A stretch of 25,292 nt of DNA from a virus, in IMG/VR virus record IMGVR_UViG_3300034068_000223, positions 1 to 25,292 of that record. The stretch is one strand, 5' to 3'. Each line of letters opens with the position of its first letter. Within the stretch, counting starts at the first letter, position 1. Positions 3,339-25,292 of the stretch are shown piece by piece. Both the position numbers and the translations under genes were made by a program. The notes beneath the pieces are model-generated. The model was given only the letters and a program-made list of their open reading frames with translations, searched no databases and was not told the origin of the DNA.

Positions 3339-3920
3339 ATGATCACGCAAAAAACAATTCAGATTGTAACGCCCCCAGCGTCGGAACCATTAACATTGGC
3401 CAACGTGAAGGAATTTTTGCGAGTTGATCACAACGACGACGACGTTACGTTGGCGATTTTTATTTCCGCGGCCCGTGAATTGTGCGAATCATTCACTCGG
3501 TTGGCGCTGATGCCAACCACGTTCGAAGAATACTTCGACGATTTCCCAACGTATTCGGGGGACTACAAAGACGAAATACATTTGTCGCGCTCGCCAGTTA
3601 CGGCCGTGACCTACGTCAAATATATTGACGGAAACGAAACAACCATCACGGCAAACGCCGCCGACTACAAAGTCGATTTAATTTCCCGACCCGCCCGCAT
3701 TTCACCCGACGCGGGTTGGTTTGGAACCTACGAAACAATCAACGCCGTATTCATTCGCTACGTTGCGGGATACGCCAACGCCGCGTCGGTTCCGGCGGCA
3801 CTTAAACAAGGAATGCTTTTGGTCATCGCCGATATGTACGAAAACCGCACGGATTCCGTGAAGCGGTTGCCAACGGCGTCGGAATATCTTTGGAACCCCT
3901 ACCGAGTTTTTTCATTTTAA
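3339..3920 (+). CDS. Head-tail connector (HK97 gp6-like adaptor)
   Basis: 193 residues. The N-terminal half carries the gp6-like signature: 'LTLANVKEFLRVDHNDDDVTL', then 'FISAARELCESFTRLAL' (residues about 20-60), the helix pair that builds the connector ring under the portal. The middle holds a beta-rich 'LSRSPVTAVTYVKYIDG' segment and a 'IRYVAGYANAASVPAALKQGMLLVIADMYENR' stretch, both usual for this family (adaptor proteins of about 100-200 residues). The start ATG is 5 bases after the preceding gene. It should sit between portal and head-closure protein, the next gene. Confident on family, less so on exact ring position. Confidence 0.88.
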   Translation: MITQKTIQIVTPPASEPLTLANVKEFLRVDHNDDDVTLAIFISAARELCESFTRLALMPTTFEEYFDDFPTYSGDYKDEIHLSRSPVTAVTYVKYIDGNETTITANAADYKVDLISRPARISPDAGWFGTYETINAVFIRYVAGYANAASVPAALKQGMLLVIADMYENRTDSVKRLPTASEYLWNPYRVFSF

Positions 3921-3923
3921 GCG

Positions 3924-4370
3924 ATGAACCCCGGCGATTTCGACCAGCGCATCGTGATTCAATCGTTCGTTCCCGCGGAATCGAGCGTGGTCGCCGTTGT
4001 TGATACCTTTGAGCAACGCGTGACAAACGATTTCGGCGAACTGGTTTCGGAATCGTGCGTCGTTGACGCAATCCAAGACGAACTTGGCGGCATCGCCCAA
4101 GATTATTTCGGGCAACGCCGCGTCGATTTCACAACCTTGGCGGCCGTATGGGCGAAGGTCGAAGAAAAATCGGGCGTCGAAGGTGAAATGTCTTATCAAC
4201 TAATCGCCGAACGGCGGGTTCAATTCGTGATCCGCTGGCGCAGCGACATCAACGAACAAATGCGGATTCTTTACCGCTCAAAGATTTACGAAATCGAATC
4301 TATTATTTCGGACGACGCGCGAAAACATACAATGAAGATTCATACTAAATTGTCGGACAATGGCCAGTGA
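3924..4370 (+). CDS. Head-closure / head-tail joining protein with an internal insertion
   Basis: 148 residues, longer than the usual 100-115 of the SPP1 gp16-like head-closure family. The family signals are 'MNPGDFDQRIVIQSF' at the start and, from about residue 68, 'DFTTLAAVWAKVEEKSGVEG' followed by 'VQFVIRWRSDINEQMRILYRSKIYEIESI'. Between them, residues about 22-54 are extra and carry the recurrent Phe-Asp-Gly-Cys motif (F29, V33, D36, G38, C45) seen in two tail proteins of this window. After the insertion the native text appears to resume at 'QDELGG'. The family forms the stopper ring below the adaptor. Start ATG is 3 bases after the upstream stop; the end overlaps the next gene by 11 bases. 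Confidence 0.85.
   Translation: MNPGDFDQRIVIQSFVPAESSVVAVVDTFEQRVTNDFGELVSESCVVDAIQDELGGIAQDYFGQRRVDFTTLAAVWAKVEEKSGVEGEMSYQLIAERRVQFVIRWRSDINEQMRILYRSKIYEIESIISDDARKHTMKIHTKLSDNGQ
3999..4085 (+). repeat. Recurrent F-D-G-C motif, copy A
   Basis: Codes residues 26-54 of the head-closure protein. Spacing is F29, R32, V33, D36, G38, S42, S44, C45, A49. It is the most divergent of the first four copies (Phe replaces the first Gly, Val replaces the Glu) but keeps exactly the Phe-to-Asp distance of 7 and the Phe-to-Cys distance of 16. It occupies the place where related head-closure proteins have only a short loop. Confidence 0.7.
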
Positions 4371-12415: not shown

Positions 12416-14076
12416 GTTTTTTCGAAGACGCGTCGTTGGTTTTAATTCCAAGCGGCATAAAGAACGCAAAAGTTTATAGCGTTAAGCCGACCGATGGTAC
12501 GGGCGACCTAACCTTCAGCCGTGCCTCAAGCGCAACCCGTGTGCAAAGTGACGGCCTAATTGAAAAGGTGCGGACTAATCAAGCGCTACAAAGCGAAACG
12601 CTTGATAATGCTTATTGGACTAAGACCAATGTAAGCATCACCGCTAACGCTATTGCGAATCCTTTAAATGGTGCATTAACGGCTGAACTTCTCACGATAA
12701 CTGACCCGAGTGGCCCCGTAGAAAAAACAATCACCACAACTCAAACGCAGTCGTTTACCGCTGGAATTCCATATACGGCATCGGCTTACTTTAAGGCTGG
12801 AACAATTAGCACTCAATTCAAAATTCTTGCTTACGATGGCACCGCTCTTTATCAAGGTGGAATTATTGATTTAGCAATAATTGGGAATAGTACCGCACCT
12901 TATGAAGACGTTGGCGGTGGATGGTATCGTTTTCGTTTTACGTTTACTCCAGCAAATAGTACGTCAACTGGTTTTGTTTACCTTGTAAACTACGCTTTTG
13001 GAGTTGCTGCAAACGCTGGAACAAATGTTTACGTTTACGGAGCGCAGATTGAAACGGGCGACATAGCAACAGACTACATCGCCACCACCACCGCAGCGGT
13101 ATCAGTTGGCCCCGTTAGCGGTTTACCCCGTTTGGATTATTTGGGGTCTACTTGCCCTCGCTTGTTGCTGGAGCCGCAGCGGACTAATCTCGTGACGTAC
13201 TCGGAGCAGTTTGATAATGCTTATTGGAGTAAAGATTTAGGCGTTAGCGTAGCGGCAAATGTCGCAATTTCCCCCGATGGCTATACAAATGCAGATAGAA
13301 TTTCATACACTTCAGCGGGCGCATCAATTTATCGTATAGTGTTGGGCATAAGTACCGCACATCAATTCAGTGTTTATCTAAAAGCCGAAGGCGCAAACAT
13401 TGGTAAGCAAATAAATTTAGAGTCTTCAACTAACATAAATGTAACACTTACCGGCGAATGGCAGCGTTTTGTTACAACAAGCAATGATGGGGTTGTAGCA
13501 ATTAAACGTCTTTTGGTCGGTCAAGCAGACGCAGTGCTTGTTTGGGGCGCACAACTTGAAGCGGGAACCTACGCCACCTCGTACATACCCACATTAGGGG
13601 CATCAGTTACAAGGGTTGCGGATGCTGCTTCAAAGACTTCGGCTTCGGCTCTTATCGGTCAAACCGAAGGTACTATCTTTTGGGAGTTTGCAGTTGATGT
13701 ATCAGCGGCCGCTGGCCACGAATCAATTATAAACATTGATAATGGTTCGTTTGGCAATACAATTTATATTATAAAATCAACGGCAGGAACCATCGGTGCG
13801 GAAATGTACGTTGGTGGAGTTGCGCAAGCAAGTTATACATCATCAGTACAAGCGGCTGGAACTCATAAAGCAGCGATTGGTTATGCAAATAACAACACCG
13901 CATTTTTTCTTAACGGAGTACAAATCGGAACAACCGATACGTCTTGCAGCGTGCCAGCAACGAGCCGCATTCAATTAGGAAGTAGTGTATTCGGTTCATC
14001 TACGGACAAAACCGCACAAGCCCTACTATTCAAGACCCGTTTAACCAACGCCCAATTGGCAGAACTAACCGCATAA
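12412..14076 (+). CDS. Tail fibre with two carbohydrate-binding-like modules and a LamG-like tip
   Basis: 554 residues, probably the receptor-binding fibre. Residues 33-53 hold 'LTFSRASSATRVQSDGLIEKV', a known opening of Bacteroidota phage fibres. Two related modules follow: about 55-230 and 258-400, each with 'DNAYW(T/S)K' near the start and 'WGAQ(I/L)E(A/T)G..AT.YI.T' at the end. 'LDYLGSTCPRLLLEPQRTNLV' links them. Residues about 405-554 look like a LamG/concanavalin-type lectin domain ('EGTIFWEFAVD', 'HKAAIGYANNNTAFFLNGVQIGT', 'IQLGSS'). Base composition is lower in GC and CpG than both flanks, and codon use differs, consistent with exchange of a receptor-binding module. Start overlaps the previous stop by ATGA. 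Confidence 0.85.
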   Translation: MSFFEDASLVLIPSGIKNAKVYSVKPTDGTGDLTFSRASSATRVQSDGLIEKVRTNQALQSETLDNAYWTKTNVSITANAIANPLNGALTAELLTITDPSGPVEKTITTTQTQSFTAGIPYTASAYFKAGTISTQFKILAYDGTALYQGGIIDLAIIGNSTAPYEDVGGGWYRFRFTFTPANSTSTGFVYLVNYAFGVAANAGTNVYVYGAQIETGDIATDYIATTTAAVSVGPVSGLPRLDYLGSTCPRLLLEPQRTNLVTYSEQFDNAYWSKDLGVSVAANVAISPDGYTNADRISYTSAGASIYRIVLGISTAHQFSVYLKAEGANIGKQINLESSTNINVTLTGEWQRFVTTSNDGVVAIKRLLVGQADAVLVWGAQLEAGTYATSYIPTLGASVTRVADAASKTSASALIGQTEGTIFWEFAVDVSAAAGHESIINIDNGSFGNTIYIIKSTAGTIGAEMYVGGVAQASYTSSVQAAGTHKAAIGYANNNTAFFLNGVQIGTTDTSCSVPATSRIQLGSSVFGSSTDKTAQALLFKTRLTNAQLAELTA

Positions 14077-15461: not shown

Positions 15462-15871
15462 TTCCCCTCGCGATGGTCGTCGCATCGTGTGGTGCGGACT
15501 GGCACCTAAAACGTGCGATTGCAAAAGACCCCTCAATTCTCAAAACGGCTGCGGTTCGGTTCGACACAATCGTCGTGACGAAGGAGCGAAAATTAACCGA
15601 CACAATCTTGATGACCGAGCGCGATACGATAACGATTGAACGCGACCGCGTACGGGTGCGTTTGGTGCGTTCTTACGATACTTTGATGGTCGAGGGTACT
15701 TGCCTACCCGACACGATAAAAATCGACGTTATACGCGAAGTTCCGCAACTCGTTCAAAGGCGGTCATTCTTTACCAAGGGCGACCGCGTGTTCGGTTGGT
15801 TGCTATTCGTGGCGCTTGTTGTCGGGGTCGTGCTATACATAGGTCAACGAAACGGCAATCGTTGGTATTGA
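15443..15871 (+). CDS. Unimolecular spanin candidate (lipobox plus C-terminal membrane helix)
   Basis: 142 residues from ATG 15443, which puts the signal at the start; an upstream in-frame start at 15410 inside the endolysin would bury it. Residues 4-16 are a lipoprotein signal with lipobox Val13-Ala14-Ser15-Cys16, for attachment to the outer membrane after cleavage. The last 25 residues contain a membrane helix ('GWLLFVALVVGVVLYIG', about 115-132) for the inner membrane. The segment between is strand-rich and polar ('RDTITIERDRVRVRLVRSYDT'). An N-terminal lipobox with a C-terminal membrane segment is the u-spanin layout, which fuses the two membranes in the final lysis step. It follows the endolysin directly, as spanins do. 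Confidence 0.82.
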   Translation: MARWILIPLAMVVASCGADWHLKRAIAKDPSILKTAAVRFDTIVVTKERKLTDTILMTERDTITIERDRVRVRLVRSYDTLMVEGTCLPDTIKIDVIREVPQLVQRRSFFTKGDRVFGWLLFVALVVGVVLYIGQRNGNRWY

Positions 15872-16004
15872 TTTTCCCGACCATTGTGGTTCGGTCAATC
15901 TAAAACTTTAATTTATTGGGTCGCGCGTCAAAGCAAACGTTGACGTTTTTAACGTTGTTCAAAAGTTTATTTGTATTTATTTGGTTTATATTGATACGCC
16001 GTGT

Positions 16005-16059
16005 ATTTTATTTATATATATATATTTACCATAGGTAAATATATATATATAAATAAAAT
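16005..16059. repeat. Perfect 26-bp inverted repeat (AT-rich hairpin)
   Basis: Left arm 16005-16030 and right arm 16034-16059 are exact reverse complements over 26 bp, separated by ATA. Each arm has a (TA)n core of 12 bases, a GG/CC pair at the tip (TTTACC-ATA-GGTAAA) and AAATAAAAT/ATTTTATTT at the base. It can form a cruciform in DNA or a very long RNA hairpin. The only G:C pairs are two at the loop end, unlike an ordinary terminator, and no T-run follows. Confidence 0.95.
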
Positions 16060-16089: not shown

Positions 16090-16119
16090 TTGAATCATTG
16101 GTAAAGTTTTGTATATTTG
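16090..16119 (+). promoter_or_regulatory. Promoter upstream of the 61-residue membrane protein
   Basis: TTG at 16090-16092, 19-base spacer, TATATTTG at 16112-16119: an ideal -33/-7 pair. The downstream leader (AACAAACAAAAAACA) is A-rich and G-free, like those of the cassette promoters at 21954-22755. Confidence 0.85.
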
Positions 16120-16139
16120 CAGCCAACAAACAAAAAACA

Positions 16140-16482: not shown

Positions 16483-17007
16483 ATGACTACAAAACCCGAT
16501 TTCCAAAAAGGGGTTCGCGCTATTATCAGCGGAACCGCTCAATGGGCGCAATTAACGCCCAAGTCCGGCCCTAACAAAATGGCCAACAAATACCAATGCG
16601 ATCTAATGATTGACGATACCTCGTTGAAATTACTCGAAAGCATCGGTGCATATAAGTTCGTTCAAATCAAAGGCATGGACGGCAACCCGAAATACGAGGT
16701 TCCGGCCGTTCGTATTAAGGCGAACAACCCGCCCAACGTATTCGACACGCACAAGGCGACGTTCGACGACTACATCAACAATGGTTCAGTTCTGAAAACG
16801 AATTGCATCGTCAAGGCGTACGAATACAACGGCAAAAAAGGTTTGTCCGTTTGGGTGAACGACGTGATCGTTCTAAACCTCGCCGAGCGTGGCGAAGGTG
16901 GCGGCACTCCGTCCGATTTTTTCGAAGGCGTGAAGCCAGCCGAACCAACCTTTGACGCGGTTCAGCCGAACACGGCAACCAACGACGACGATGGTTTCCC
17001 GTTCTAA
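16483..17007 (+). CDS. Single-stranded DNA-binding protein, T7 gp2.5-like (DUF2815-like)
   Basis: 174 residues. An OB-fold-like order is visible: 'FQKGVRAIISGTAQWAQLTPKSGPNKMANKYQCDLMID' (residues about 7-46), then 'IKGMDGNPKYEVPAVRIKANNPPNVFD' and 'NNGSVLKTNCIVKAYEYNGKKGLSVWVNDVIVL'. The C-terminus is acidic and ends 'NDDDGFPF', the partner-binding tail typical of SSB proteins, which end in DDDIPF or a variant. It should coat ssDNA at replication forks and aid recombination with the RecE-like nuclease downstream. First gene of the replication operon. The end overlaps the next gene by 17 bases. Confidence 0.85.
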   Translation: MTTKPDFQKGVRAIISGTAQWAQLTPKSGPNKMANKYQCDLMIDDTSLKLLESIGAYKFVQIKGMDGNPKYEVPAVRIKANNPPNVFDTHKATFDDYINNGSVLKTNCIVKAYEYNGKKGLSVWVNDVIVLNLAERGEGGGTPSDFFEGVKPAEPTFDAVQPNTATNDDDGFPF

Positions 17008-17413: not shown

Positions 17414-17547
17414 CCATCGAATTCAACTGGCGCAAAGAAGACGCCCTATTTTTAACGCCATCAATCGTGTATTTTAGCGATTCTGATTCGAAGCACGTTA
17501 TTTTCTCATTCATTTATTTTACGGCGCTGGTGTCGGTTAACAAATGA
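17410..17547 (+). CDS. 45-residue protein of unknown function
   Basis: Starts at an ATGA overlap with the DnaA-like gene and ends at an ATGA overlap with the RecE-like gene, so translation is strongly supported by context. It is 45 residues, with an acidic/aromatic start ('MTIEFNWRKEDALFL'), 'YFSDSDSKHVIFSFIYFTAL' and a short end. The second half is hydrophobic and could be one membrane-associated strand or helix. I cannot assign a role. Confidence 0.6.
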   Translation: MTIEFNWRKEDALFLTPSIVYFSDSDSKHVIFSFIYFTALVSVNK

Positions 17548-18278
17548 AAACGAAACCATTTTTGCCGTTGTCGTTTTCGAGCGTCAAAGAATTCGCAAAG
17601 TCGCCGAACCATTTTCTCGCCTACAAAAACAAAACGCGTGAGGCAACGGCGGCCATGACCCGCGGTTCGGCATTGCACACCTTTGTTTTGGAACCCGACG
17701 AATTCGAAAAGCGCTACCTCGTGGCGCCCGACATTCGTCGCGGTACGAACGCATGGAAGGAGGTCGAATCGGCTGCCGGAACGCGTGAAATACTCAAAGA
17801 TTCCGAATTCGAAATCATTGAACGTATGGCGGCCGCCCTTTGGGCGCATCCAGCCGCGGCGGAGTTGTTCGCACAAACGACCGCCGTCGAACAAGGTTTG
17901 GAATTTGAATTCAACGGAATCGCATTCCGCGGGTTCGCCGATATGGTGGCCCCGACGTTTGTCGCCGACCTCAAGTCAACGCAAGACGTTTCGGCGTCGG
18001 CGTTCAATCGGTGGATATTTGGAAACAAATATCATTTGCAAGCGGCGCTATACTGCGCGGCCTTGAAATTAGAAAAGTTCTACTTCATTGGCGTTGAGGC
18101 AAACTCGCCGTACAACGTCGGAGTTTTCGAAATGGACAAAACGTCGATTGAATTTGGTATATTTGAACTAATCGAATTAACCACGAAATTCAAAAAATGG
18201 GACGGAATGCCCGCGACCTACACGAACGACATAATTGTTTTAACGCCGCCGAAATGGTTGACGTCGAACAACGATTGA
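17544..18278 (+). CDS. RecE-like exonuclease, PD-(D/E)XK family
   Basis: 244 residues. Family signs: 'LSFSSVKEFAKSPNHFLAYK' near the start, 'TRGSALHTFVLEPDEFEKRYLVAP' (His45), a middle helix pair, then the catalytic core 'FRGFADMVAPTFVADLKST' with Asp133, Asp142 and Lys144 (D-x-K), and 'NKYHLQAALYCAAL' with Gln166. This is the exodeoxyribonuclease VIII C-terminal fold: 5' to 3' digestion of dsDNA leaving ssDNA for annealing. No RecT-like annealase is recognisable, so the SSB-like protein may serve the partner role (inference). Start overlaps the 45-residue ORF. Confidence 0.88.
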   Translation: MKTKPFLPLSFSSVKEFAKSPNHFLAYKNKTREATAAMTRGSALHTFVLEPDEFEKRYLVAPDIRRGTNAWKEVESAAGTREILKDSEFEIIERMAAALWAHPAAAELFAQTTAVEQGLEFEFNGIAFRGFADMVAPTFVADLKSTQDVSASAFNRWIFGNKYHLQAALYCAALKLEKFYFIGVEANSPYNVGVFEMDKTSIEFGIFELIELTTKFKKWDGMPATYTNDIIVLTPPKWLTSNND

Positions 18279-18517
18279 ACCGCGTGTCTGAATTTTTAGA
18301 ACGCGCCCGCACGCTGGCCGATCGTTGGGAATCCGACGACATGGTTTCGTTGTGCAATGATATTGAAATAATGGTCGCGTTTTGCGAAATGAATCTACCG
18401 AACTATGCCCTCACCCACTACATTAGCGGAACTCCGCCAGTTCGCAAAGATTCACAACGCGACGAAATACCCCAACGTCCCAACGTCGGCATTGCCGGTG
18501 ACGACATTCACCGATAA
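18254..18517 (+). CDS. Small helical protein of unknown function
   Basis: 87 residues from ATG 18254, overlapping the RecE-like gene by 25 bases and the VRR-NUC gene by 113 bases. Its first two thirds are strongly helical and charged ('VEQRLNRVSEFLERARTLADRWES'), and include three Cys/acid-rich turns ('LCNDIEIMVAFCEMN'). The 3' part, which shares DNA with the start of the VRR-NUC gene, is low in structure and may be unconstrained. No family recognised. Moderate confidence that it is real because of the operon context. Confidence 0.55.
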   Translation: MVDVEQRLNRVSEFLERARTLADRWESDDMVSLCNDIEIMVAFCEMNLPNYALTHYISGTPPVRKDSQRDEIPQRPNVGIAGDDIHR

Positions 18518-18836
18518 AACGGCAAACGGCCTCACCAATGCAATCATATACGACATCATGCACGTTCGCGGGGGCGCAGCATACCGAATCAACAACGGGG
18601 CAACTTACGACCGAGCAAAGAACATATATCGTGCGGGCGTCACGAAACGCGGCGTCCCCGATATTATTGCCGTCGTGGATGGGCGATTCATCGGAATCGA
18701 GGTAAAGATCGGAGCCGACCGCCAGTCGTCGCATCAACGCGAGGTCGAAGCGGAAATCAACGGAGCCGGTGGCGTGTATTTTATCGCGAAAACGTACGAA
18801 GAATATGTCGGTTCCCTCGCCGCCGCGCTCCGATAA
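18405..18836 (+). CDS. VRR-NUC domain nuclease
   Basis: 143 residues. The nuclease domain starts around 'FTDKTANGLTNAIIYDIMHVRGGAAYRINN' (about 35-64) and contains the active-site set: Asp86 in 'RGVPDII', Glu99-x-Lys101 in 'GIEVKIGADRQSSHQREV', and Gln111. It ends in 'AGGVYFIAKTYEEYV', usual for this group. VRR-NUC proteins are structure-specific DNases of the PD-(D/E)XK fold (recombination junctions, flaps). The N-terminal 35 residues overlap the preceding ORF in another frame. Confidence 0.85.
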   Translation: MPSPTTLAELRQFAKIHNATKYPNVPTSALPVTTFTDKTANGLTNAIIYDIMHVRGGAAYRINNGATYDRAKNIYRAGVTKRGVPDIIAVVDGRFIGIEVKIGADRQSSHQREVEAEINGAGGVYFIAKTYEEYVGSLAAALR

Positions 18837-19215
18837 GCAGCGCGGCGAATGGGCCGAAGCGCAGTTCGTGGCGGACGCGTTGAAAAATGGTTTCGAAATC
18901 TTCACGCCGATTGGCGATTGTTCGTCAATAGATTTCGTAATTTTTCACGATGGCAAACCGATACGAATTCAATGCAAAGCAACGTGGACCAACTTAAAGG
19001 GAAAATCGAAGTGGAACATTGGTAAAGGGTCTTCGGCGAAGAAAAGGTACACGGATCACGACGTTGACTTTTTAGCGCTCTACGATGGAAACATTGAGTG
19101 TTGGCGGTTTGTCCGGCCAAGTGAAACAAACGGACAAAAGACATTTAGAATACCGCAAGACGAAACAAAACAACTGGAAAACTGGCATGACCTCAAAGAA
19201 TTCAACGATCATTGA
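18805..19215 (+). CDS. PD-(D/E)XK endonuclease-like protein
   Basis: 136 residues from ATG 18805; a GTG further upstream would add overlap only. 'QRGEWAEAQFVADALKNGFEIFTPIGDCSSIDFVIFHDGKPIRIQCKAT' fits the small PD-(D/E)XK domain (PDDEXK_5/group-I-intron-endonuclease-like, also related to Holliday junction resolvases): Glu18, Asp43 and Gln56-x-Lys58 are the expected catalytic positions. Then a Lys-rich segment and 'YTDHDVDFLALYDGNIECWRF'. It overlaps both neighbours (32 and 29 bases). A junction resolvase for recombination or packaging is the most economical role; a homing-type activity is the alternative. Confidence 0.75.
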   Translation: MSVPSPPRSDKQRGEWAEAQFVADALKNGFEIFTPIGDCSSIDFVIFHDGKPIRIQCKATWTNLKGKSKWNIGKGSSAKKRYTDHDVDFLALYDGNIECWRFVRPSETNGQKTFRIPQDETKQLENWHDLKEFNDH

Positions 19216-21166
19216 TTTAGCACGGCGCTACCTCGCCGCCGGGTTCTCACCAATACCATTGGTTCCGGGCGATAAGCGCCCAAGCGTAAAGGGTTGGCAA
19301 CGCTACGGCGAAGAACCTATGGGTTGGGGCGAGGCCGACAAAATGTTTGCCGACACGGATTCCATCGGTATCGTTTGCGGTTACGATGGTTTGGAGGTTC
19401 TCGACATCGACGCCAAGCATTTTGACGGCGACGAATTAAACGAGTTCACGACGTTACTGGACGCCGAGGCGCCGGGCCTTCGCTCGAAAATGACCATTCA
19501 ACAAACGCGGTCGGGCGGTGAACATTGGATTTACAAATGCGACAACGTCGAAGGCAATCAAAAGTTAGCGCGGAATATAGAAGGCGAAACGACGTTTGAA
19601 ACACGCGGCGTCGGCGGTCAAATCGTGGTGTTTCCCTCGCCCGGTTACAAAATGAAAACCAAAATAACATTGGTTCAGCGGATCACGCCCGACGAACGCG
19701 AAATACTATTCCGCTGCGCTCGGTTGACATCCAGCGCCCCGCGCGTTGTGACCATCGCCCACGACCTTAAATTGAAATCGGAAATAAGCGCGAAAACGCC
19801 GTGGGGCGAGTTCCGCGAAACGCACACGGCGCTTGAAATACTCGAATCAAATGGTTGGAAAATCGTTGGGCAAAATGCAAAATATACATATTTGAAACGC
19901 CCCGGCGACACGGACGCCAAGACGTCGGGCGTTATTTTCAACGATACGGGTTTGTTTTGGCCTTGGACGACGTCAACCGATTTTGTCGCCGAGAAACCGC
20001 ACGACGCGTTTCAATGCTATGTCACGCTCGAATGCCGCGGCGACTTCAAAGAGGCATTCCGTCAACTGGCGTCGCGGGGTTACGGGGCGAAATATGCGCC
20101 GGAAAATATACCGCCGTCGGACGACGACGACGAACAAATCACCGACGATGAAATGATGGCGCACCTCATGACGTTGGAGGTGGATTCGACCATTCCCGTT
20201 GAACGCCCGCCCGTCGCGGTTGACGTGTTCACCGGTTTGGAATCGTTCGTACTGGGGTCGCTCGGTAACTTCGTTCTAATCCAAGGCAAAGCGAAATCGC
20301 GCAAATCTTATCTTGTTTCGGCGATTGCCGCCGCCGCGTTGTCGGAAAACGTCGTCGCCGAAGCGCTGCGCGGTTACATCGGCGACAAAGTGGTTTTGTA
20401 CATCGACACCGAACAAGGCGACTGGCACGCCGCACGGGCGAAGAAACGCATTTTGAACATGGCGGGTCTTGATCCGCTCACGAACAACGAACGATTAAAA
20501 TACTTCAAATTCCGCGGCCTTGACCGCAACGCCGAGCGTTTCGCGTTTGTCGAGTTCGCGCTTGAACGAATCCCCAACATTGGTTTGGTTGTCATTGACG
20601 GCATTGTTGACCTCGCGTCGAAGGGCGTGAACGACGAAGAAGAAGCGACTGAAATCGCCTCGCGGTTGCTCAAATGGACATCGGTTCATAATTGTATGCT
20701 GGTCGCCGTATTGCACGAAAACAAAAACGACCGCAACGCAAAGGGTCACCTCGGCGCATATTTAGTGCAAAAGGCGGAATCGGTCATCGGGGTCGCCAAG
20801 AACGAACACGACGCGTCGGCGTCAACCATTACGCCCGAGTACACGCGAAACATCGAGTTCCCGACGTTGACGATGCGGGTCAACAATGACGACACAATCA
20901 CGCTGGGCGAACATGAAGAATCGGATTTTTACGAACTCGACCGGGTTTGGTCGCCCGACGACCTTCAGCGCATCGCAAAAAAGATTGACGGGAAAATGAA
21001 AACCGAAATCGTGCCGTTCATTCGCGATACGGAAACGGCAAAGCAAAAGGAGGCGACCAAGGCGTTTAATTTAATGCTTGACCAAGGCATTGTCACAATG
21101 ACCAGCGGGCGACCACAACGCGCCGTGTACAACGACCACAACGACGAAATTGAAACACCATTCTAA
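19187..21166 (+). CDS. Replicative primase-helicase (prim-pol domain plus RepA-like ATPase)
   Basis: 659 residues from ATG 19187 (29-base overlap with the preceding gene); the upstream ATG at 19085 would lie inside it. The N-terminal prim-pol domain shows 'YLAAGFSPIPLVPGDKRP', the metal-binding 'VLDIDAKH' (Asp73, Asp75), 'SGGEHWIY' (109-116) and 'GVGGQIVVFPSPG' (141-153). Then an acidic linker ('PPSDDDDEQITDDE', about 309-322). The C-terminal RecA-like ATPase (AAA_25) has 'LIQGKAKSRKSYL' (P-loop 367-374, with Arg in place of the second Gly), 'VLYIDTEQGDW' and Walker B 'IGLVVIDGIVDL' (Asp471). It should prime and unwind at the fork, while the host supplies the polymerase, as no polymerase gene is visible. 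Confidence 0.9.
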   Translation: MTSKNSTIIDLARRYLAAGFSPIPLVPGDKRPSVKGWQRYGEEPMGWGEADKMFADTDSIGIVCGYDGLEVLDIDAKHFDGDELNEFTTLLDAEAPGLRSKMTIQQTRSGGEHWIYKCDNVEGNQKLARNIEGETTFETRGVGGQIVVFPSPGYKMKTKITLVQRITPDEREILFRCARLTSSAPRVVTIAHDLKLKSEISAKTPWGEFRETHTALEILESNGWKIVGQNAKYTYLKRPGDTDAKTSGVIFNDTGLFWPWTTSTDFVAEKPHDAFQCYVTLECRGDFKEAFRQLASRGYGAKYAPENIPPSDDDDEQITDDEMMAHLMTLEVDSTIPVERPPVAVDVFTGLESFVLGSLGNFVLIQGKAKSRKSYLVSAIAAAALSENVVAEALRGYIGDKVVLYIDTEQGDWHAARAKKRILNMAGLDPLTNNERLKYFKFRGLDRNAERFAFVEFALERIPNIGLVVIDGIVDLASKGVNDEEEATEIASRLLKWTSVHNCMLVAVLHENKNDRNAKGHLGAYLVQKAESVIGVAKNEHDASASTITPEYTRNIEFPTLTMRVNNDDTITLGEHEESDFYELDRVWSPDDLQRIAKKIDGKMKTEIVPFIRDTETAKQKEATKAFNLMLDQGIVTMTSGRPQRAVYNDHNDEIETPF

Positions 21167-21169
21167 ACC

Positions 21170-21616
21170 ATGACATTCGAAGAATCTTTAATTCACGAAC
21201 GCGACGCAATGATCGTGTTGAGTGACCTTTACCAATGGCGGACGATTAAGACGCCGCGATACGCCCGCATGGACGGAATCATTCTAAACTATGACAACGA
21301 CATGACCGCCGTTTACGAGTTCAAAGCGCGTTCCATGACCTTTGACGACTTGAAACGCCATCAAACGTATTTGATCACCTACGAGAAAATACTCGACGGG
21401 TGCCACGCGGCGCGAACGCTGGGCATTCCCTTTGTTTTAATCGTTTATTTGATTGGTTCGGAAAACATTATTTTGTTCAAAGTCGCCGACGAAAACGGCG
21501 ATTTGTTAATCGACTTTGACGTGGTACGCACGACCACGCAAAAGGACGTCAACGGGGGCGCAGTCGAACGCTACAACGCGTTTATTGGTCTAAACCATAT
21601 GAAGGTACTGCGGTGA
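21170..21616 (+). CDS. PD-(D/E)XK-like protein
   Basis: 148 residues, 3 bases after the primase-helicase. Residues 29-62 ('PRYARMDGIILNYDNDMTAVYEFKARSMTFDDL') give the Asp35 ... Glu50-x-Lys52 pattern of the PD-(D/E)XK fold, close to the Cas4/RecB type. Then 'YLITYEKILDGCHAARTLGIPFVLIVYLI' forms a helix and strand as in that fold. Family assignment is from motif order only. It is the fourth nuclease-like protein of this operon, and its stop is fused to the GTG start of the next gene (GTGA). Confidence 0.65.
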   Translation: MTFEESLIHERDAMIVLSDLYQWRTIKTPRYARMDGIILNYDNDMTAVYEFKARSMTFDDLKRHQTYLITYEKILDGCHAARTLGIPFVLIVYLIGSENIILFKVADENGDLLIDFDVVRTTTQKDVNGGAVERYNAFIGLNHMKVLR

Positions 21617-21921
21617 TATTAAACGGCCTTACACGCGCTGAAATCGAAGCCGTTGGGTTGGGTTGGATTCTCGACGACCCAGCGGACGACGACAAATTGG
21701 TGAACGCGATCATTGAGCGGATTATGCAAATGAAGGTCGGGGACTGCCTACCGATTAAGGACGTGACCAAGATTCAGCAAATCAAAGCCGCGAACCGCTC
21801 GGTCATGGTGTACAACGCTTTGAAAGTTGACGAAGTGGCCAATACATTGACAAAGGTTCGGGAATGCCGCATTCACCGACTGGCGGAATATATCGGGGGC
21901 AAGCCGCTAAAAATTGGTTAA
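21613..21921 (+). CDS. 102-residue protein of unknown function, GTG start
   Basis: Starts at GTG 21613, which overlaps the previous stop (GTGA); no in-frame ATG lies near the start, so the GTG is preferred. The protein is acidic in the first half ('GWILDDPADDDKLVNAIIERIMQM') and basic in the second ('VTKIQQIKAANRSVMVYNALK', 'ECRIHRLAEYIGGKPL'), mostly helical. Last gene of the replication operon. The stop is inside an AT-only palindrome at 21920-21938. No family recognised. Confidence 0.65.
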   Translation: MILNGLTRAEIEAVGLGWILDDPADDDKLVNAIIERIMQMKVGDCLPIKDVTKIQQIKAANRSVMVYNALKVDEVANTLTKVRECRIHRLAEYIGGKPLKIG

Positions 21922-21945
21922 ATAAAATAATTTTATTTTTTTTTG
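21920..21945 (+). terminator. AT-only hairpin with T-tract (end of replication operon)
   Basis: AAATAAAAT (21920-21928) and ATTTTATTT (21930-21938) are perfect arms around one A, and a run of Ts follows (21936-21944). The hairpin is weak because it has no G:C pair, but its placement right at a stop codon and in front of a promoter fits a terminator. Confidence 0.5.
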
Positions 21946-21983
21946 TTGAAAAGTTGCACGTTCAATAAATTGTTGTATATTTA
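21943..21983 (+). promoter_or_regulatory. Cassette promoter 1
   Basis: TTG (21954-21956), 19-base spacer, TATATTTA (21976-21983). Arms TTGTTGAA (21943-21950) and TTCAATAA (21961-21968) flank the -33 box as an inverted repeat with one mismatch; compare the perfect version in cassette promoter 2. The leader that follows (ACAAACAAACAAATAAAAAC) ends in AACGTCATG. Confidence 0.88.
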
Positions 21984-22014
21984 CATCAACAAACAAACAA
22001 ATAAAAACAACGTC

Positions 22015-22266
22015 ATGAAAAACCACACTATCTCAAACATCACTTACAGCATCGTAATCGTTGAAGAAACTTCGGTTAAAACTGAAACAATGACATTCGA
22101 ACGCCTATTCTTTAACAATAAAGAAGAAGGCAACGATTGGGAATTCATTTATGCCTTGGGCGAAATATCCGAACACGTTATCAAGTTGAACCTTGGCGAA
22201 AGTATTTACTTTAACGCGAACCGCGATATTGCCGAACACAAGGGAATCATTGTTCGGATCAGTTAA
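22015..22266 (+). CDS. Cassette gene 1, unknown function
   Basis: 83 residues from ATG 22015, the position fixed by the conserved leader AACGTCATGAAA. The protein is acidic overall and predicted beta-rich at both ends ('ITYSIVIVEETSVKTETMTF' and 'IIVRIS') with a helix around 'FIYALGEISEHVIKL'. No family recognised. It forms a one-gene unit with its own promoter and terminator. Small, acidic, strongly expressed proteins in such positions are often inhibitors of host defence or host enzymes, but here this is only a guess from context. Confidence 0.75.
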   Translation: MKNHTISNITYSIVIVEETSVKTETMTFERLFFNNKEEGNDWEFIYALGEISEHVIKLNLGESIYFNANRDIAEHKGIIVRIS

Positions 22267-22274
22267 ACCAAACG

Positions 22275-22299
22275 GGCGCCTTCGGGCGCCTTTTCTTTT
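22275..22299 (+). terminator. Cassette terminator 1
   Basis: GGCGCC-TTCG-GGCGCC (22275-22290), followed by TTTTCTTTT. The TTCG loop closed by C:G gives the very stable UUCG tetraloop in RNA. The same hairpin is found after genes 2, 3 and 4 of the array. Confidence 0.92.
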
Positions 22300-22312
22300 A
22301 TTTATTTATTTT

Positions 22313-22353
22313 TTGTTGAAAAGTTGCACGTTCAACAATTTGTTGTATATTTG
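22313..22353 (+). promoter_or_regulatory. Cassette promoter 2 with perfect operator-like inverted repeat
   Basis: TTG (22324-22326), 19-base spacer, TATATTTG (22346-22353). TTGTTGAA (22313-22320) and TTCAACAA (22331-22338) are perfect 8-bp inverted arms around a 10-base centre (AAGTTGCACG) holding the -33 box. A protein bound there would block the promoter. Confidence 0.9.
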
Positions 22354-22384
22354 AAGCAACAAACAAACAAATAAAAACAACGTC

Positions 22385-22669
22385 ATGAAAAACATCACCA
22401 AACTCGAAGCCGATTTTTTAACCGCAATCCTAAACTCTGAAAACGGAATGGGTTGCGAACCCGAATGGAATTGGTTTGAACAAATCCAATTTGATCCAAA
22501 GCAAGGTCGCGCATTGGCGTCGTCCTTAAAGCAAAAAGATATTTTAATTGTTGACGATACCGATGCAAAAAATACTTTTGCCGGAACCTATGTTTGCATT
22601 AGACCCATGTACTTCATTTCTAACGAAGACACGGGAAAAGTTCTTTTGAAAAACCTTTTCGTTGATTAA
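22385..22669 (+). CDS. Cassette gene 2, unknown function
   Basis: 94 residues from ATG 22385, with the same start context as cassette gene 1. The first half has a possible winged-helix look: 'ITKLEADFLTAILNSEN', a Trp-rich turn ('CEPEWNWFEQIQF') and 'GRALASSLKQKDILIVDD', a helix followed by a strand. The second half is strand-rich ('AGTYVCIRPMYFI'). Its only resemblance to gene 1 is the first three residues (MKN), which may be part of the shared leader. Function unknown. Confidence 0.75.
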   Translation: MKNITKLEADFLTAILNSENGMGCEPEWNWFEQIQFDPKQGRALASSLKQKDILIVDDTDAKNTFAGTYVCIRPMYFISNEDTGKVLLKNLFVD

Positions 22670-22677
22670 ACCAAACG

Positions 22678-22702
22678 GGCGCCTTCGGGCGCCTTTTCTT
22701 TT
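22678..22702 (+). terminator. Cassette terminator 2
   Basis: Same hairpin as terminator 1 (GGCGCC-TTCG-GGCGCC, 22678-22693) with TTTTCTTTT after it. The flanks are identical too: TTAAACCAAACGG before, TTATTTATTTATTTTTG after. Confidence 0.92.
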
Positions 22703-22714
22703 ATTTATTTATTT

Positions 22715-22755
22715 TTGTCGAAAAGTTGCACGTTCAACAATTTGTTGTATATTTG
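22715..22755 (+). promoter_or_regulatory. Cassette promoter 3
   Basis: TTG (22726-22728), 19-base spacer, TATATTTG (22748-22755). The inverted arms TTGTCGAA (22715-22722) and TTCAACAA (22733-22740) have one mismatch relative to copy 2. The leader is slightly shorter than in copies 1 and 2. Confidence 0.9.
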
Positions 22756-22783
22756 AATAACAAACAAACAAAAAAACAACGTC

Positions 22784-23044
22784 ATGAAATCAAACAAAAA
22801 CGGAACATTTAGAATTAACGACCTAAAGGCGTATGGCTTGATGGGTGCTAAATTTTACGCCATCGTAGAAAACGACCGCATCCAATCGTTCAAATCAAAA
22901 AGCAACACAATCCAAAACGGCGGGTTGTATGAACTCAAGTCGGTAGGCCCGGAGTTCCGCACAAACGGAAAATACTTTGTTGAAGTTGTCACGGACAAAG
23001 GAACATTTATCGCAAAGCACAACCTCGGAGTTTTACTATCTTAA
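22784..23044 (+). CDS. Cassette gene 3, unknown function
   Basis: 86 residues from ATG 22784. Predicted as an all-beta small barrel: 'AKFYAIVENDRIQSFK', 'GGLYELKSVGPEF', 'GKYFVEVVTDKGTFIAKHNL'. Basic overall, unlike acidic gene 1. It could be an SH3-like or nucleic-acid-binding fold, but no specific motif is present. It has the common leader and promoter. Confidence 0.75.
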   Translation: MKSNKNGTFRINDLKAYGLMGAKFYAIVENDRIQSFKSKSNTIQNGGLYELKSVGPEFRTNGKYFVEVVTDKGTFIAKHNLGVLLS

Positions 23045-23053
23045 ACCAAACGG

Positions 23054-23069
23054 GGCGCCTTCGGGCGCC
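23054..23069 (+). other. Cassette hairpin without T-tract (3/4 junction)
   Basis: GGCGCC-TTCG-GGCGCC again, but followed by TTACTTAAACGAAAC instead of TTTTCTTTT, and no promoter follows. As a terminator it would be leaky, so gene 4 is probably reached by readthrough from promoter 3. It may also protect the 3' end of the upstream mRNA. Confidence 0.8.
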
Positions 23070-23102
23070 TTACTTAAACGAAACAAACAAAAAAACAACG
23101 TC

Positions 23103-23342
23103 ATGAACAACTCAATCAAATCAACCAAAATCCGCGCTGGTCGCTACCAAGTAAACATCAATGGTTTGCAGCCCTTTATTGTTCAAGAACGATTGAACAA
23201 TGATTGTATGCCAACGGGAGAATGGAATATGTTTGCCCCGGACGGAGAATGGATGGACACACGTCATTCAAAAAAAGTGTGTTTATATCTATTGGACGAA
23301 ATGCACAAGTCGGGAAGGTTGAATGAATACCGATTATCTTAA
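23103..23342 (+). CDS. Cassette gene 4, unknown function, no own promoter
   Basis: 79 residues from ATG 23103 (leader AACAACGTCATGAA conserved). 'IRAGRYQVNINGLQPFIVQERLN', 'TGEWNMFAPDGEWMD' and 'HSKKVCLYLLDEM' give a strand-strand-helix layout that I recall from small proteins of Bacteroidota phages ('G.Y.V..NG..F.I...' then 'SK...'), again without a known function. It lacks a promoter and relies on readthrough of the hairpin at 23054. Confidence 0.72.
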   Translation: MNNSIKSTKIRAGRYQVNINGLQPFIVQERLNNDCMPTGEWNMFAPDGEWMDTRHSKKVCLYLLDEMHKSGRLNEYRLS

Positions 23343-23350
23343 ACCAAACG

Positions 23351-23366
23351 GGCGCCTTCGGGCGCC
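23351..23366 (+). other. Cassette hairpin without T-tract (4/5 junction)
   Basis: Same hairpin as at 23054, followed by the same TTACTTAAACGAAACAAAC sequence. The two promoterless junctions are nearly identical to each other, and the two promoter-bearing junctions are nearly identical to each other. Confidence 0.8.
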
Positions 23367-23387
23367 TTACTTAAACGAAACAAACAA

Positions 23388-23543
23388 ATGAAAACGGAAA
23401 TCGACACCCTCAAAACCGCGTGGCGCGATTACGCCAACGCGAAATCAATCGAAGAATTCAACGCAGCCGAAAAGGTTTTATTAAAGTTCCACAACAAATA
23501 CGGAACGATTGACATTCCAACCATAAAATCATTGATACAATGA
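23388..23543 (+). CDS. Cassette gene 5, small helical protein
   Basis: 51 residues from ATG 23388, directly after the A-rich leader AACAAACAA. Two amphipathic helices are apparent ('LKTAWRDYANAKSIEEFNAAEKVLLKF') with a Tyr-Gly turn and a short end. It has no promoter of its own. The stop overlaps the next start by ATGA, which joins the array to the following operon. No family recognised. Confidence 0.65.
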   Translation: MKTEIDTLKTAWRDYANAKSIEEFNAAEKVLLKFHNKYGTIDIPTIKSLIQ

Positions 23544-23779
23544 ACCCGCTATTAACACCATTCGAGAACGCCATCGTTCGACTGCATCGCCGCTATTTAA
23601 GGGGCGACAACACACGCGGCGCGGCGCGGTTAATCATTCGCGCAAAGATGCAATTCAAGTTCGTACTGGTTCGCGCCCTTCAGCAACAATGGGACGCGTT
23701 CGTTCCCGAACCAAAATGCGTTGTTTGCAACTGCCTAAACACCCGCGTCAACGCGGAAACGTGCGACGATCATGCGTAG
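23540..23779 (+). CDS. Small zinc-finger-like protein
   Basis: 79 residues. The N-terminal two thirds are basic and helical ('AIVRLHRRYLRGDNTRGAARLIIRAKMQFKF'). The C-terminal part has Cys60-x2-Cys63, Cys65, then Cys75-x2-His78, a plausible zinc knuckle ('PKCVVCNCLNTRVNAETCDDH'). It starts at an ATGA overlap and overlaps the next ORF by 8 bases. A DNA- or RNA-binding role fits, but is unproven. Confidence 0.65.
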   Translation: MNPLLTPFENAIVRLHRRYLRGDNTRGAARLIIRAKMQFKFVLVRALQQQWDAFVPEPKCVVCNCLNTRVNAETCDDHA

Positions 23780-23966
23780 GGGTTTTGTCGAGTGGCTCGA
23801 ACATATTGGTTCGGTGCATCAATCTAACAAACCAGCGGTCGCGCGTGCATTGCAGCAACTCGCCGACGAAGACCAATTCCGACCAACGTTGACGATCGTT
23901 GACGACCGAACCAAGGCGTTGACGTGCATCGTCGCCATCGGCCGTGAATTTAACTACAATGCCTAA
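23772..23966 (+). CDS. 64-residue protein of unknown function
   Basis: Starts at ATG 23772, overlapping the previous gene by 8 bases, and overlaps the HNH gene by 8 bases. Helical first half ('VEWLEHIGSVHQSNKPAVARALQQLADE') and a strand-rich second half ('PTLTIVDDRTKALTCIVAIG'). No family recognised. Its overlaps on both sides support it. Confidence 0.6.
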   Translation: MRRGFVEWLEHIGSVHQSNKPAVARALQQLADEDQFRPTLTIVDDRTKALTCIVAIGREFNYNA

Positions 23967-24261
23967 CATACCACAACGCAAACAACGCCCGTGGCTCACG
24001 GGTTCGGGGTTCGACAAAGGACGCCGCACGGCGAACTCCGCGTTTTACCAGTCGTCGCCGTGGCGTAAACTGCGCGGAATGTTCATCCGAACGAACCCCG
24101 TGTGTATTGAATGCGGCCGCGCTGGTGCGGTCGTTGACCATATCGTTCGCGTCAATGACAACCCCGACCTCGCGTTGACGTGGGACAATCTTCAAACAAT
24201 GTGTCACCCGTGCCACAACTCGAAGTCGGGTCGTGAGGCGCACCACAAACCAACACCATGA
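23959..24261 (+). CDS. HNH endonuclease (packaging-associated type)
   Basis: 100 residues from ATG 23959. 'FYQSSPWRKLRGMFIRTNPVCIECG' is the classical lead-in, with Cys49-x2-Cys52 and Cys82-x2-Cys85 as zinc ligands. The HNH core includes Asp60-His61 ('VVDHIVRV'), Asn77 ('WDNLQTMCHPCHNSKSG') and Asn87-x-Lys89. Small HNH proteins next to terminase genes help in DNA cleavage during packaging (established for HK97 gp74 and relatives). Its place shortly before the small terminase gene agrees with that role. Confidence 0.92.
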   Translation: MPNIPQRKQRPWLTGSGFDKGRRTANSAFYQSSPWRKLRGMFIRTNPVCIECGRAGAVVDHIVRVNDNPDLALTWDNLQTMCHPCHNSKSGREAHHKPTP

Positions 24262-24515
24262 CCGACATCACTAAATGCACGGGCGAAGGCTGCCCGCTCA
24301 AAGAAACGTGCCATCGCTTTACCGCGCCGGCTGAAATGTACCAATCGTACTTCATGACCCCGCCGGTTAAGAACGGCAAATGCGAATATCACTGGTCGCA
24401 AAATGCGACCTCAAGAACGATACTCGACCCAATGCGCGACGCGTTCGACGAAATGAACTGCGACGAATGCGGCGGGTTTGGTTATCACAAAATGAGTTGC
24501 TCGCACGTCAAATGA
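24258..24515 (+). CDS. Cysteine-rich small protein with two putative zinc sites
   Basis: 85 residues, ATGA overlap with the HNH gene. 'CTGEGCPLKETCHRFTAP' at residues 7-24 gives Cys7, Cys12, Cys18 (with Cys42 as probable fourth ligand), a motif I remember from small phage proteins in Bacteroidota ('C.GegCP.K..CyR.tA'). The end has Cys68-x2-Cys71 and Cys81-x-His83, a second site. No enzymatic residues. It could bind DNA or RNA near the packaging genes. Confidence 0.72.
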   Translation: MTDITKCTGEGCPLKETCHRFTAPAEMYQSYFMTPPVKNGKCEYHWSQNATSRTILDPMRDAFDEMNCDECGGFGYHKMSCSHVK

Positions 24516-24643
24516 TTAACACCCCAACCAATCGTTGTATTTTTTGCAACAACTTAAACACCAACCATGAAGCAATCATTCAAAGTCACAATAGAACACA
24601 ACGGCGAACAAACGTCAATCGCTACCCCAATGACGTGGTTTGA
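24512..24643 (+). CDS. Possible 43-residue CxxC peptide overlapping the next gene
   Basis: Begins at an ATGA overlap with the preceding stop and reads 43 residues, mostly inside the next gene in another frame (overlap 24567-24643). It contains Cys9-x2-Cys12 and 'CNNLNTNHEA', curiously like the 'CNCLNTRVNAE' of the 79-residue zinc-finger-like protein at 23540. It may be a real coupled peptide or only a decayed fragment. Low confidence. Confidence 0.3.
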   Translation: MINTPTNRCIFCNNLNTNHEAIIQSHNRTQRRTNVNRYPNDVV

Positions 24644-25022
24644 CGTGACCGACTGCATCGACGTCATACAACGTGCAATGCTCGGCGCGGGGTTTACGCT
24701 CGGCGGTACATTGATGATCGTGAGCGACGACGACGTGCGGAAAATGGATTGCCATTGTGCGCCGGATGCGAATCGGCGCGAGCATCGCCGCCAACAAAAC
24801 ATCGACAAACAATCGTTGAAGTTCTTGGAAATAATCGAGGTACAATTTTTACCGCACCACGATTTCGAAACCAAAGTATTTACTGGCGCAATGGGGGGTG
24901 ACGGCATCCGAGTTGCGGCAACGTACGAGGACGAATGCAAAGCCGCACGCGGTGAAGAATTTAATGAGTTGATGCCGATTGAATGGCGTCGTCTTGATGG
25001 GGAAATTTTTAAGTATTTATAG
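24567..25022 (+). CDS. 151-residue protein of unknown function
   Basis: Starts at ATG 24567. The N-terminal 55 residues form strand-helix-strand ('SFKVTIEHNGEQTSIATPMTWFDVTDCIDVIQRAMLGAGF'), then a His/Cys-bearing charged middle ('DCHCAPDANRREHRRQQ') and a long C-terminal part with 'FLEIIEVQFLPHHDFETKVFTGAMGGDGI'. No family that I can name. Last gene before the small terminase. Codon use is like that of the neighbours. Confidence 0.68.
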   Translation: MKQSFKVTIEHNGEQTSIATPMTWFDVTDCIDVIQRAMLGAGFTLGGTLMIVSDDDVRKMDCHCAPDANRREHRRQQNIDKQSLKFLEIIEVQFLPHHDFETKVFTGAMGGDGIRVAATYEDECKAARGEEFNELMPIEWRRLDGEIFKYL

Positions 25023-25146
25023 GTAGGGGGGGGTCAAATCAAAAAGACTTTTCGCCGATTCATCGACGCCTCAGTCGTATTTACGCGGTGTCAAAACTTG
25101 GGCGCCCTTTGTGTAGAACGATTCTAAATAACAAAACAATAAAATC
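25023..25146 (+). other. Non-coding gap before the small terminase gene
   Basis: 124 bases with an eight-G run (25026-25033), a near copy of the 11-bp repeat region of 12027-12041 (TTCATCGACGCCTCA, 25059-25073) and no convincing promoter of the -33/-7 type. Possibly a regulatory or packaging recognition (cos/pac-like) region, since such sites commonly lie near the small terminase gene. Confidence 0.55.
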
Positions 25147-25292
25147 ATGCCCGGAGGCCGTAAAAGAAAACCAACCGAAATGCTCAAGACCGCCGGAACC
25201 TTCCGCGCGGATCGCCACGCCAACAAACTGGAGTTGCCCCTCGGCGCCCCGGTTCCGCGTGCTGCGATGGGTGAAATATCACGCGAGGCATT
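25147..25292 (+). CDS. Terminase small subunit, P27 type (3' partial)
   Basis: First 48 residues only; the gene runs off the window. 'MPGGRKRKPTEMLKTAGTFRADRHA' is the N-terminal sequence pattern of P27-family small terminases ('RKP...K..GTfR.dRh'), followed by 'LPLGAPVPR'. The protein recognises phage DNA for packaging. The large terminase should follow outside the window, then the portal gene with which the window begins, if the molecule is circular. Confidence 0.88.
   Translation, partial: MPGGRKRKPTEMLKTAGTFRADRHANKLELPLGAPVPRAAMGEISREA

Follow-up and report, generated by a model that had tools for sequence, protein, structure and literature searches.

Unrelated small genes in repeated promoter-leader-hairpin DNA of a small tailed phage: a probable site of gene exchange

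Results

Four small genes are set in repeated regulatory DNA

The locus lies between two conserved genes of the window, by which we mean the whole stretch analyzed (25,292 nucleotides of a virus record), and all of its features are on the plus strand. The left anchor is a 102-aa gene with no assigned function (21613..21921) that is conserved in all relatives; its homologs occupy the same position in contigs L125 to L129 and are 95, 72, 72, and 45% identical by alignment. The right anchor (gene 5) encodes 51 aa (23388..23543) and is likewise conserved in all relatives, with 92% identity in L125 and 65 to 67% in L126 to L128. Between them are four small genes: gene 1 (22015..22266; 83 aa, net charge −5, 38.5% G+C), gene 2 (22385..22669; 94 aa, net charge −4, 38.2% G+C), gene 3 (22784..23044; 86 aa, net charge +6, modeled with low confidence as all-beta), and gene 4 (23103..23342; 79 aa). 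At the local base composition, the chance of finding four open frames this long directly behind leaders is about 1e-10.

When we searched the 25.3-kb window for repeated 20-, 25-, 30-, and 40-mers, we found none outside positions 21900 to 23420. Genes 1 to 3 are each preceded by TTG-N19-TATATTTR and then by an A-rich leader of 28 to 31 nt that ends in AACGTC before the ATG. Promoter P1 (21954..21983) reads TTG-N19-TATATTTA, while P2 (22324..22353) and P3 (22726..22755) both read TTG-N19-TATATTTG. In a promoter alignment, all three match the Bacteroidota promoter consensus TTTG/TANNTTTG (PMC6847099) except at the last base of P1, where the G that almost always closes the −7 box in Bacteroidota is missing. 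A-rich starts that lack a Shine-Dalgarno sequence are also normal in Bacteroidota (PMC6847099). Leader 1 (21984..22014) is nearly identical to leader 2 (22354..22384); leader 3 occupies 22756..22783, and leader 4 (23077..23102) has no promoter upstream. Overall, the 5′ flanks of genes 1 to 3 are 92.5 to 97% identical, compared with 64 to 66% for shuffled copies, and the 3′ flanks are 100% identical within two pairs, genes 1 and 2 and genes 3 and 4.

Each stop codon of genes 1 to 4 is followed by TAAACCAAAC and a GGGCGCC-TTCG-GGCGCC hairpin of about −14 to −15 kcal/mol, with a perfect stem of 6 to 8 bp and a UUCG loop, as in a standard terminator stem. Hairpin 1 (22274..22291; GGGCGCC-TTCG-GGCGCCT, −14.3 kcal/mol, z −3.2) and hairpin 2 (22677..22694) run into T-rich tails. 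Hairpin 3 (23052..23071, 8-bp stem) and hairpin 4 (23350..23367) have no T-run; of the four, therefore, just the first two resemble intrinsic terminators. Complete terminator-promoter joints occur twice, at 22264 to 22384 and 22667 to 22783. Because only hairpins 1 and 2 have T-rich DNA after them, we predict three transcripts: one from P1 through gene 1 to its terminator, one from P2 through gene 2 to its terminator, and one from P3 through genes 3 and 4 into gene 5 and onwards.

A preliminary description of this DNA had counted five small, mutually dissimilar genes, each in a near-identical promoter-leader-hairpin unit. Four of these genes belong to the array, but the 51-aa gene has neither an AACGTC-ATG leader nor a hairpin and is a conserved flanking gene rather than a cassette. 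Genes 1 to 4 are indeed unrelated to one another (best blastp E value, 0.18), and the near-identity of the flanks was borne out by the values above. The unit structure is complete with a promoter for genes 1 to 3, whereas the unit of gene 4 consists of leader and hairpin only.

Three further details of the regulatory DNA were observed. The spacers of P2 and P3 contain a dyad, CAACAATTTGTTG (approximate positions 22334 to 22346 and 22736 to 22748), that is kept as CAACATTTTGTTG in L126 to L128 but was not found in an early promoter at 16090; it is a possible operator. The promoter at 16090 to 16139 is itself of the array type and, with a AACAAACAAA leader, precedes a conserved small membrane-like ORF; in L126 and L127 the matching leader also ends in AACGTC-ATG. 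Finally, genes 3 and 4 both carry TATCTTAAACC (approximate positions 23036 to 23049 and 23334 to 23347), so the identity of their 3′ flanks includes the last few bases of the coding sequences, and a recombination junction may lie inside the end of the ORF.

The array belongs to a small tailed phage with candidate recombination genes

The gene content of the 25.3-kb window is that of a small tailed phage. Family scans of its genes found a portal protein, an HK97-type major head protein, an amidase, a primase with an AAA domain, a PDDEXK protein, and an HNH endonuclease. Contigs of the group measure 25 to 28 kb and encode HK97-type head proteins (phrog_10 and phrog_12); the scans made of them detected no T4 core genes, and no integrase or repressor was recognized in the ORFs scanned. 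The window phage is a small (about 26 to 27 kb), non-T4, tailed phage with Bacteroidota-type signals. A GTDB scan with the primase profile returned a single distant match and identified neither host nor prophage, and the part of the window from 18000 to 25292 had no DNA match among INPHARED phages. Rfam and tRNA scans were empty and thus gave no sign of a riboswitch or of a tRNA-type integration site. L125 runs on past the locus into the small and large terminase subunits and then the portal gene, which places the array between replication and packaging genes.

Two genes upstream of the array, both on the plus strand, are candidates for driving recombination. The gene at 17544..18278 encodes an ExoVIII/RecE-like exonuclease (phrog_412, E value of 6e-52; DUF3799 PDDEXK, E value of 1e-26). 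The product of 16483..17007 weakly matches gp2.5-type single-stranded-DNA-binding/annealing proteins (phrog_112, E value of 7e-7); its match to the Enc34 ssDNA-binding family (E value of 0.003) is below the cut-off. Judged by these profile matches, the two would make a fitting candidate pair, the second being the putative partner of the exonuclease.

Related phages carry different genes at the same position

Four relatives, L125 to L128, were close enough for comparison (primase and locus). L125 is about 95% identical to the window over most of the phage; L126, L127, and L128 are about 76% identical, and L129 is 61% identical. Between the anchors, L125 has a promoter, a leader, gene 4, a hairpin, and then gene 5, and it lacks genes 1 to 3. 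L126, L127, and L128 have both anchors and a matching type of promoter-leader, with one or two other genes each: a 98-aa gene in L126 (phrog_9437, with relatives in Agrobacterium phages), a 55-aa gene with a GGCCGCC-TTCG-GGCGGCC hairpin in L127, and genes of 57 and 52 aa in L128. None of these is similar to genes 1 to 4 of the window. In L129, the homolog of the left anchor is followed by an array-type promoter and leader, in which the contig ends. The five phages (the window and L125 to L128) therefore carry five different gene sets at the slot. The cargo genes are also poorer in G+C than the other phage genes (38 to 41% versus 51 ± 3%).

Alignment of the window with L125 places the join between their collinear blocks within the leader: the window up to 22023 and the window from 23076 both align with L125 positions 3594 to 3630. 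Such a junction is what a leader-to-leader exchange or deletion would leave. This close pair is the only one in which gain or loss was seen directly, and the alignment fits either direction. With regard to concerted evolution of the promoter units, a gap-free comparison does not clearly separate the units of the window from the L125 copy. In contig IMGVR_UViG_3300035665_000199 (the ends of L125 and L137), a self-overlap of 1.2 kb has an identity of only 95%, an indication that the assembly mixes two strains.

The preliminary description had likened the locus to a cassette platform, a reading that would have failed if related phages always carried the same five genes in the same order; the gene sets above agree with it. 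The flanks were expected to occur elsewhere with other genes, and they do so solely within this phage group in IMG/VR: we found neither the array flank sequence nor a donor phage carrying the array leader in IMG/VR outside the group. A scan with a strict hairpin-plus-leader pattern gave zero matches, and a first scan of viral sequences with AACAACGTCATGAA was too unspecific, the matches listed being mostly unrelated.

Gene 4 is shared, exactly from start to stop, with another type of phage

The gene 4 protein is identical in L125, and only 2 of 237 nt differ between the two DNA sequences, both silently, compared with 2 to 9% in neighboring genes. This low divergence hints at a recent exchange, the number of sites being small. 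Five contigs of another phage type (among them G001, of 59.7 kb, G002, and G003) encode a protein 80 to 81% identical to that of gene 4. In the stretches compared, these contigs and the window have no DNA in common besides gene 4; the similarity starts at the A of the ATG and stops 5 nt past the stop codon. The leader before the homolog differs as well, reading AATCTACCATCCT-ATG. Against these homologs, gene 4 has a dN of 0.12 and a dS of 0.46 to 0.58 (dN/dS of about 0.2 to 0.3), and gene 4 is therefore a real, selected protein. INPHARED phages gave one weak match to it (E value of 0.08).

The cargo genes may act against the host

Genes 1 to 5 had zero matches in Pfam, NCBIfam, and PADLOC, genes 1 to 3 had no match in INPHARED phages (gene 1 by tblastn), and gene 2 has no relative in IMG/VR. 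The gene 4 protein is confidently modeled with five strands and a helix (pLDDT of 93). Its fold matches in BFVD are nearly all uncharacterized small phage proteins, and its best PDB match (Z of 5.3) is below the level that would mean more than a common arrangement of these elements. The gene 3 model was of too low a quality for a fold search. A role of the cargo against host defenses or in host takeover is plausible by analogy: the position of the array, the size of its genes, their host-type promoters, and their turnover are as we would expect of accessory anti-host genes.

Discussion

Exchange at repeated regulatory DNA as the likely origin of the array

As a whole, the locus is best explained as a hypervariable cargo slot whose units are exchanged by recombination at the repeated regulatory DNA, a reading that we consider likely on the sequence comparisons above. 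The spot is probably a plug-in site for swapping helper genes. Small AT-rich ORFs are kept in units of promoter, A-rich leader, ORF, and hairpin, in which the repeated DNA would supply the expression signals (a host-type promoter, a ribosome leader of the non-Shine-Dalgarno kind, and a terminator) for what may be early expression. The same DNA would also serve as homology, so that units could be gained, lost, or exchanged between coinfecting phages. For the agent of swapping, we infer homologous recombination at the flanks as the best candidate, probably driven either by host RecA or by two phage proteins, the ExoVIII-like exonuclease and the ssDNA-binding protein. Phage recombinases can act on homology that is short and diverged (PMC3945230), and phage T4 has been reported to recombine over about 50 bp of homology or less (PMC4177764) and over microhomologies of 2 to 10 bp (PMC9391042).

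The flanks could instead be expression signals only, kept alike by selection as parts of a shared early regulon, while the ORFs enter by illegitimate recombination in which the repeats take no part. An array-type promoter and leader do precede a different, conserved gene at 16090, selection acting on illegitimate events would also leave gene-exact boundaries, and for archaeal viruses the relevant part of PMC11065993 describes unrelated early accessory genes that share a conserved regulatory sequence upstream, with no claim of recombination. However, the promoter at 16090 has just the boxes and part of the leader in common with the array, whereas near-identity within the array extends over about 70 nt of flank, in addition to identical hairpins, which exceeds what expression needs; in addition, the junction between the window and L125 falls inside the leader. 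We regard this explanation as quite unlikely. We judge it very unlikely that one promoter-leader-hairpin unit was duplicated in tandem within a single lineage and that its ORFs then diverged or were overwritten with little exchange between phages. Duplication does account for the multiplied regulatory DNA, given the close likeness of the flanks in the window (92.5 to 97%) and the identical 3′ DNA of units 1 and 2. The ORFs, however, bear no trace of a common origin despite flanks that hardly differ, which rules out divergence as their explanation; moreover, gene 4 also occurs in an unrelated phage, and nonhomologous genes fill the slot in relatives. As a pure explanation, duplication is set aside, and for the ORFs it is largely refuted.

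The tandem order of ORF and then hairpin recalls a site-specific cassette system of the integron type, with the hairpin as the recombination site. We rejected an integron cassette array, which is hardly credible here: the units bring their own promoters, the GTTRRRY-type core of attC sites does not recur at the hairpins (one chance match in four), the ORFs examined by family scans include no integrase, and the hairpin, with its perfect stem of 6 to 8 bp and UUCG loop, is a standard terminator stem.

Comparison with known systems

On our best reading, the array works like the promoter-early stem-loops (PeSLs) of T4-type phages and like morons, but in a different kind of phage. PeSLs (Arbiol et al. 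2010 and Comeau et al. 2014, as cited in PMC4503421 and PMC3950731) are, as summarized there, composites of promoter and stem-loop that are repeated in one region between small nonhomologous genes, and they are held to mediate gene shuffling by homologous recombination (PMC4503421, PMC3950731). The array shares this composition and the variation of slot genes between related phages; exchange by homologous recombination at the motif may occur here too, one junction (window/L125) falling in the leader. In contrast to the PeSL phages as they are summarized, the window phage is small and non-T4 and has Bacteroidota-type promoters and long A-rich leaders; the array is confined to a single locus with no more than three promoters and four hairpins, and the leader and ATG lie inside the repeated unit. 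Since the group has HK97-type head proteins and the scans made detected none of the T4 core genes, we say that the array works like a PeSL and do not file it as a T4 PeSL. The haloarchaeal virus HGTV-1 also has a conserved promoter and inverted-repeat motif before many ORFs, which its authors compared with PeSLs (PMC3950731, in the section on these motifs). Unlike the window phage, HGTV-1 is a tailed virus of archaea whose genome is very large, with the motif at most ORFs of one genome side, and that section describes no exchange between relatives.

Morons (Juhala et al. 2000, cited in PMC7067206) resemble the cargo genes, as summarized there, in being extra genes of deviating G+C content between genes that are adjacent in relatives. 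Morons also bring their own promoter and terminator; of the cargo genes, 1 and 2 have both, gene 3 has a promoter but lacks a T-run, and gene 4 lacks a promoter. Several tandem units with identical regulatory DNA, as in the window, set the array apart from morons so summarized. Morons are presented there as prophage genes expressed in lysogeny (PMC7067206), and no lysogeny gene was recognized in the window phage. A further likeness is to the early anti-defense regulons of archaeal viruses, in which, according to the relevant part of PMC11065993, unrelated small accessory genes share one highly conserved regulatory sequence that has been used to predict anti-defense genes. There, unlike in the window, the promoters are archaeal and an anti-defense function has been shown for some genes, and that part proposes no exchange mechanism.

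How phages take up single small genes without breaking their expression is an old question, to which the T4-type PeSLs are the main worked answer. The locus described here adds a second, compact case from a phage and host of a very different type, and the idea is testable because it is precisely at the slot that several relatives differ. Should the cargo prove to be anti-host, such genes could be searched for in Bacteroidota phages by means of the promoter-leader, a strategy already applied to the shared sequence of archaeal viruses according to the relevant part of PMC11065993.

Similar patterns at other loci

A general scheme for Bacteroidota phages would have promoter, translation leader, and terminator act as a universal join; single ORFs would cross from ATG to stop between unrelated phages and be read from the recipient's repeated leader, and the dyad CAACAnnnTGTTG in the array promoters would control the joined genes as one co-regulated anti-host regulon. 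We think this broader scheme rather unlikely.

Three other loci have patterns that resemble the array, and in two of them small genes are inserted at duplicated leaders, which supports the cargo-slot reading itself. In G002 (L203), positions 13707 to 13957 hold a 70-aa gene flanked on either side by a copy of a 17-nt leader, upstream of the gene 4 homolog; this gene is missing from the near-identical phages G001 and G003. At 4243 to 4881 of L128, between the HNH gene and the next conserved gene, four copies of ACCTTTAACRCYAA precede three unrelated small ORFs (73, 67, and 56 aa; about 40% G+C) and one conserved gene. These two loci have short leaders only, without promoter or hairpin, and the duplicated leader is therefore the feature that they and the array have in common. 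In G001 (L200), repeated leaders of the CTTAACCAAAAAACAATTG type follow hairpins between small genes at 15573 to 16040, downstream of the gene 4 homolog, and form a weaker array of similar style in another phage.
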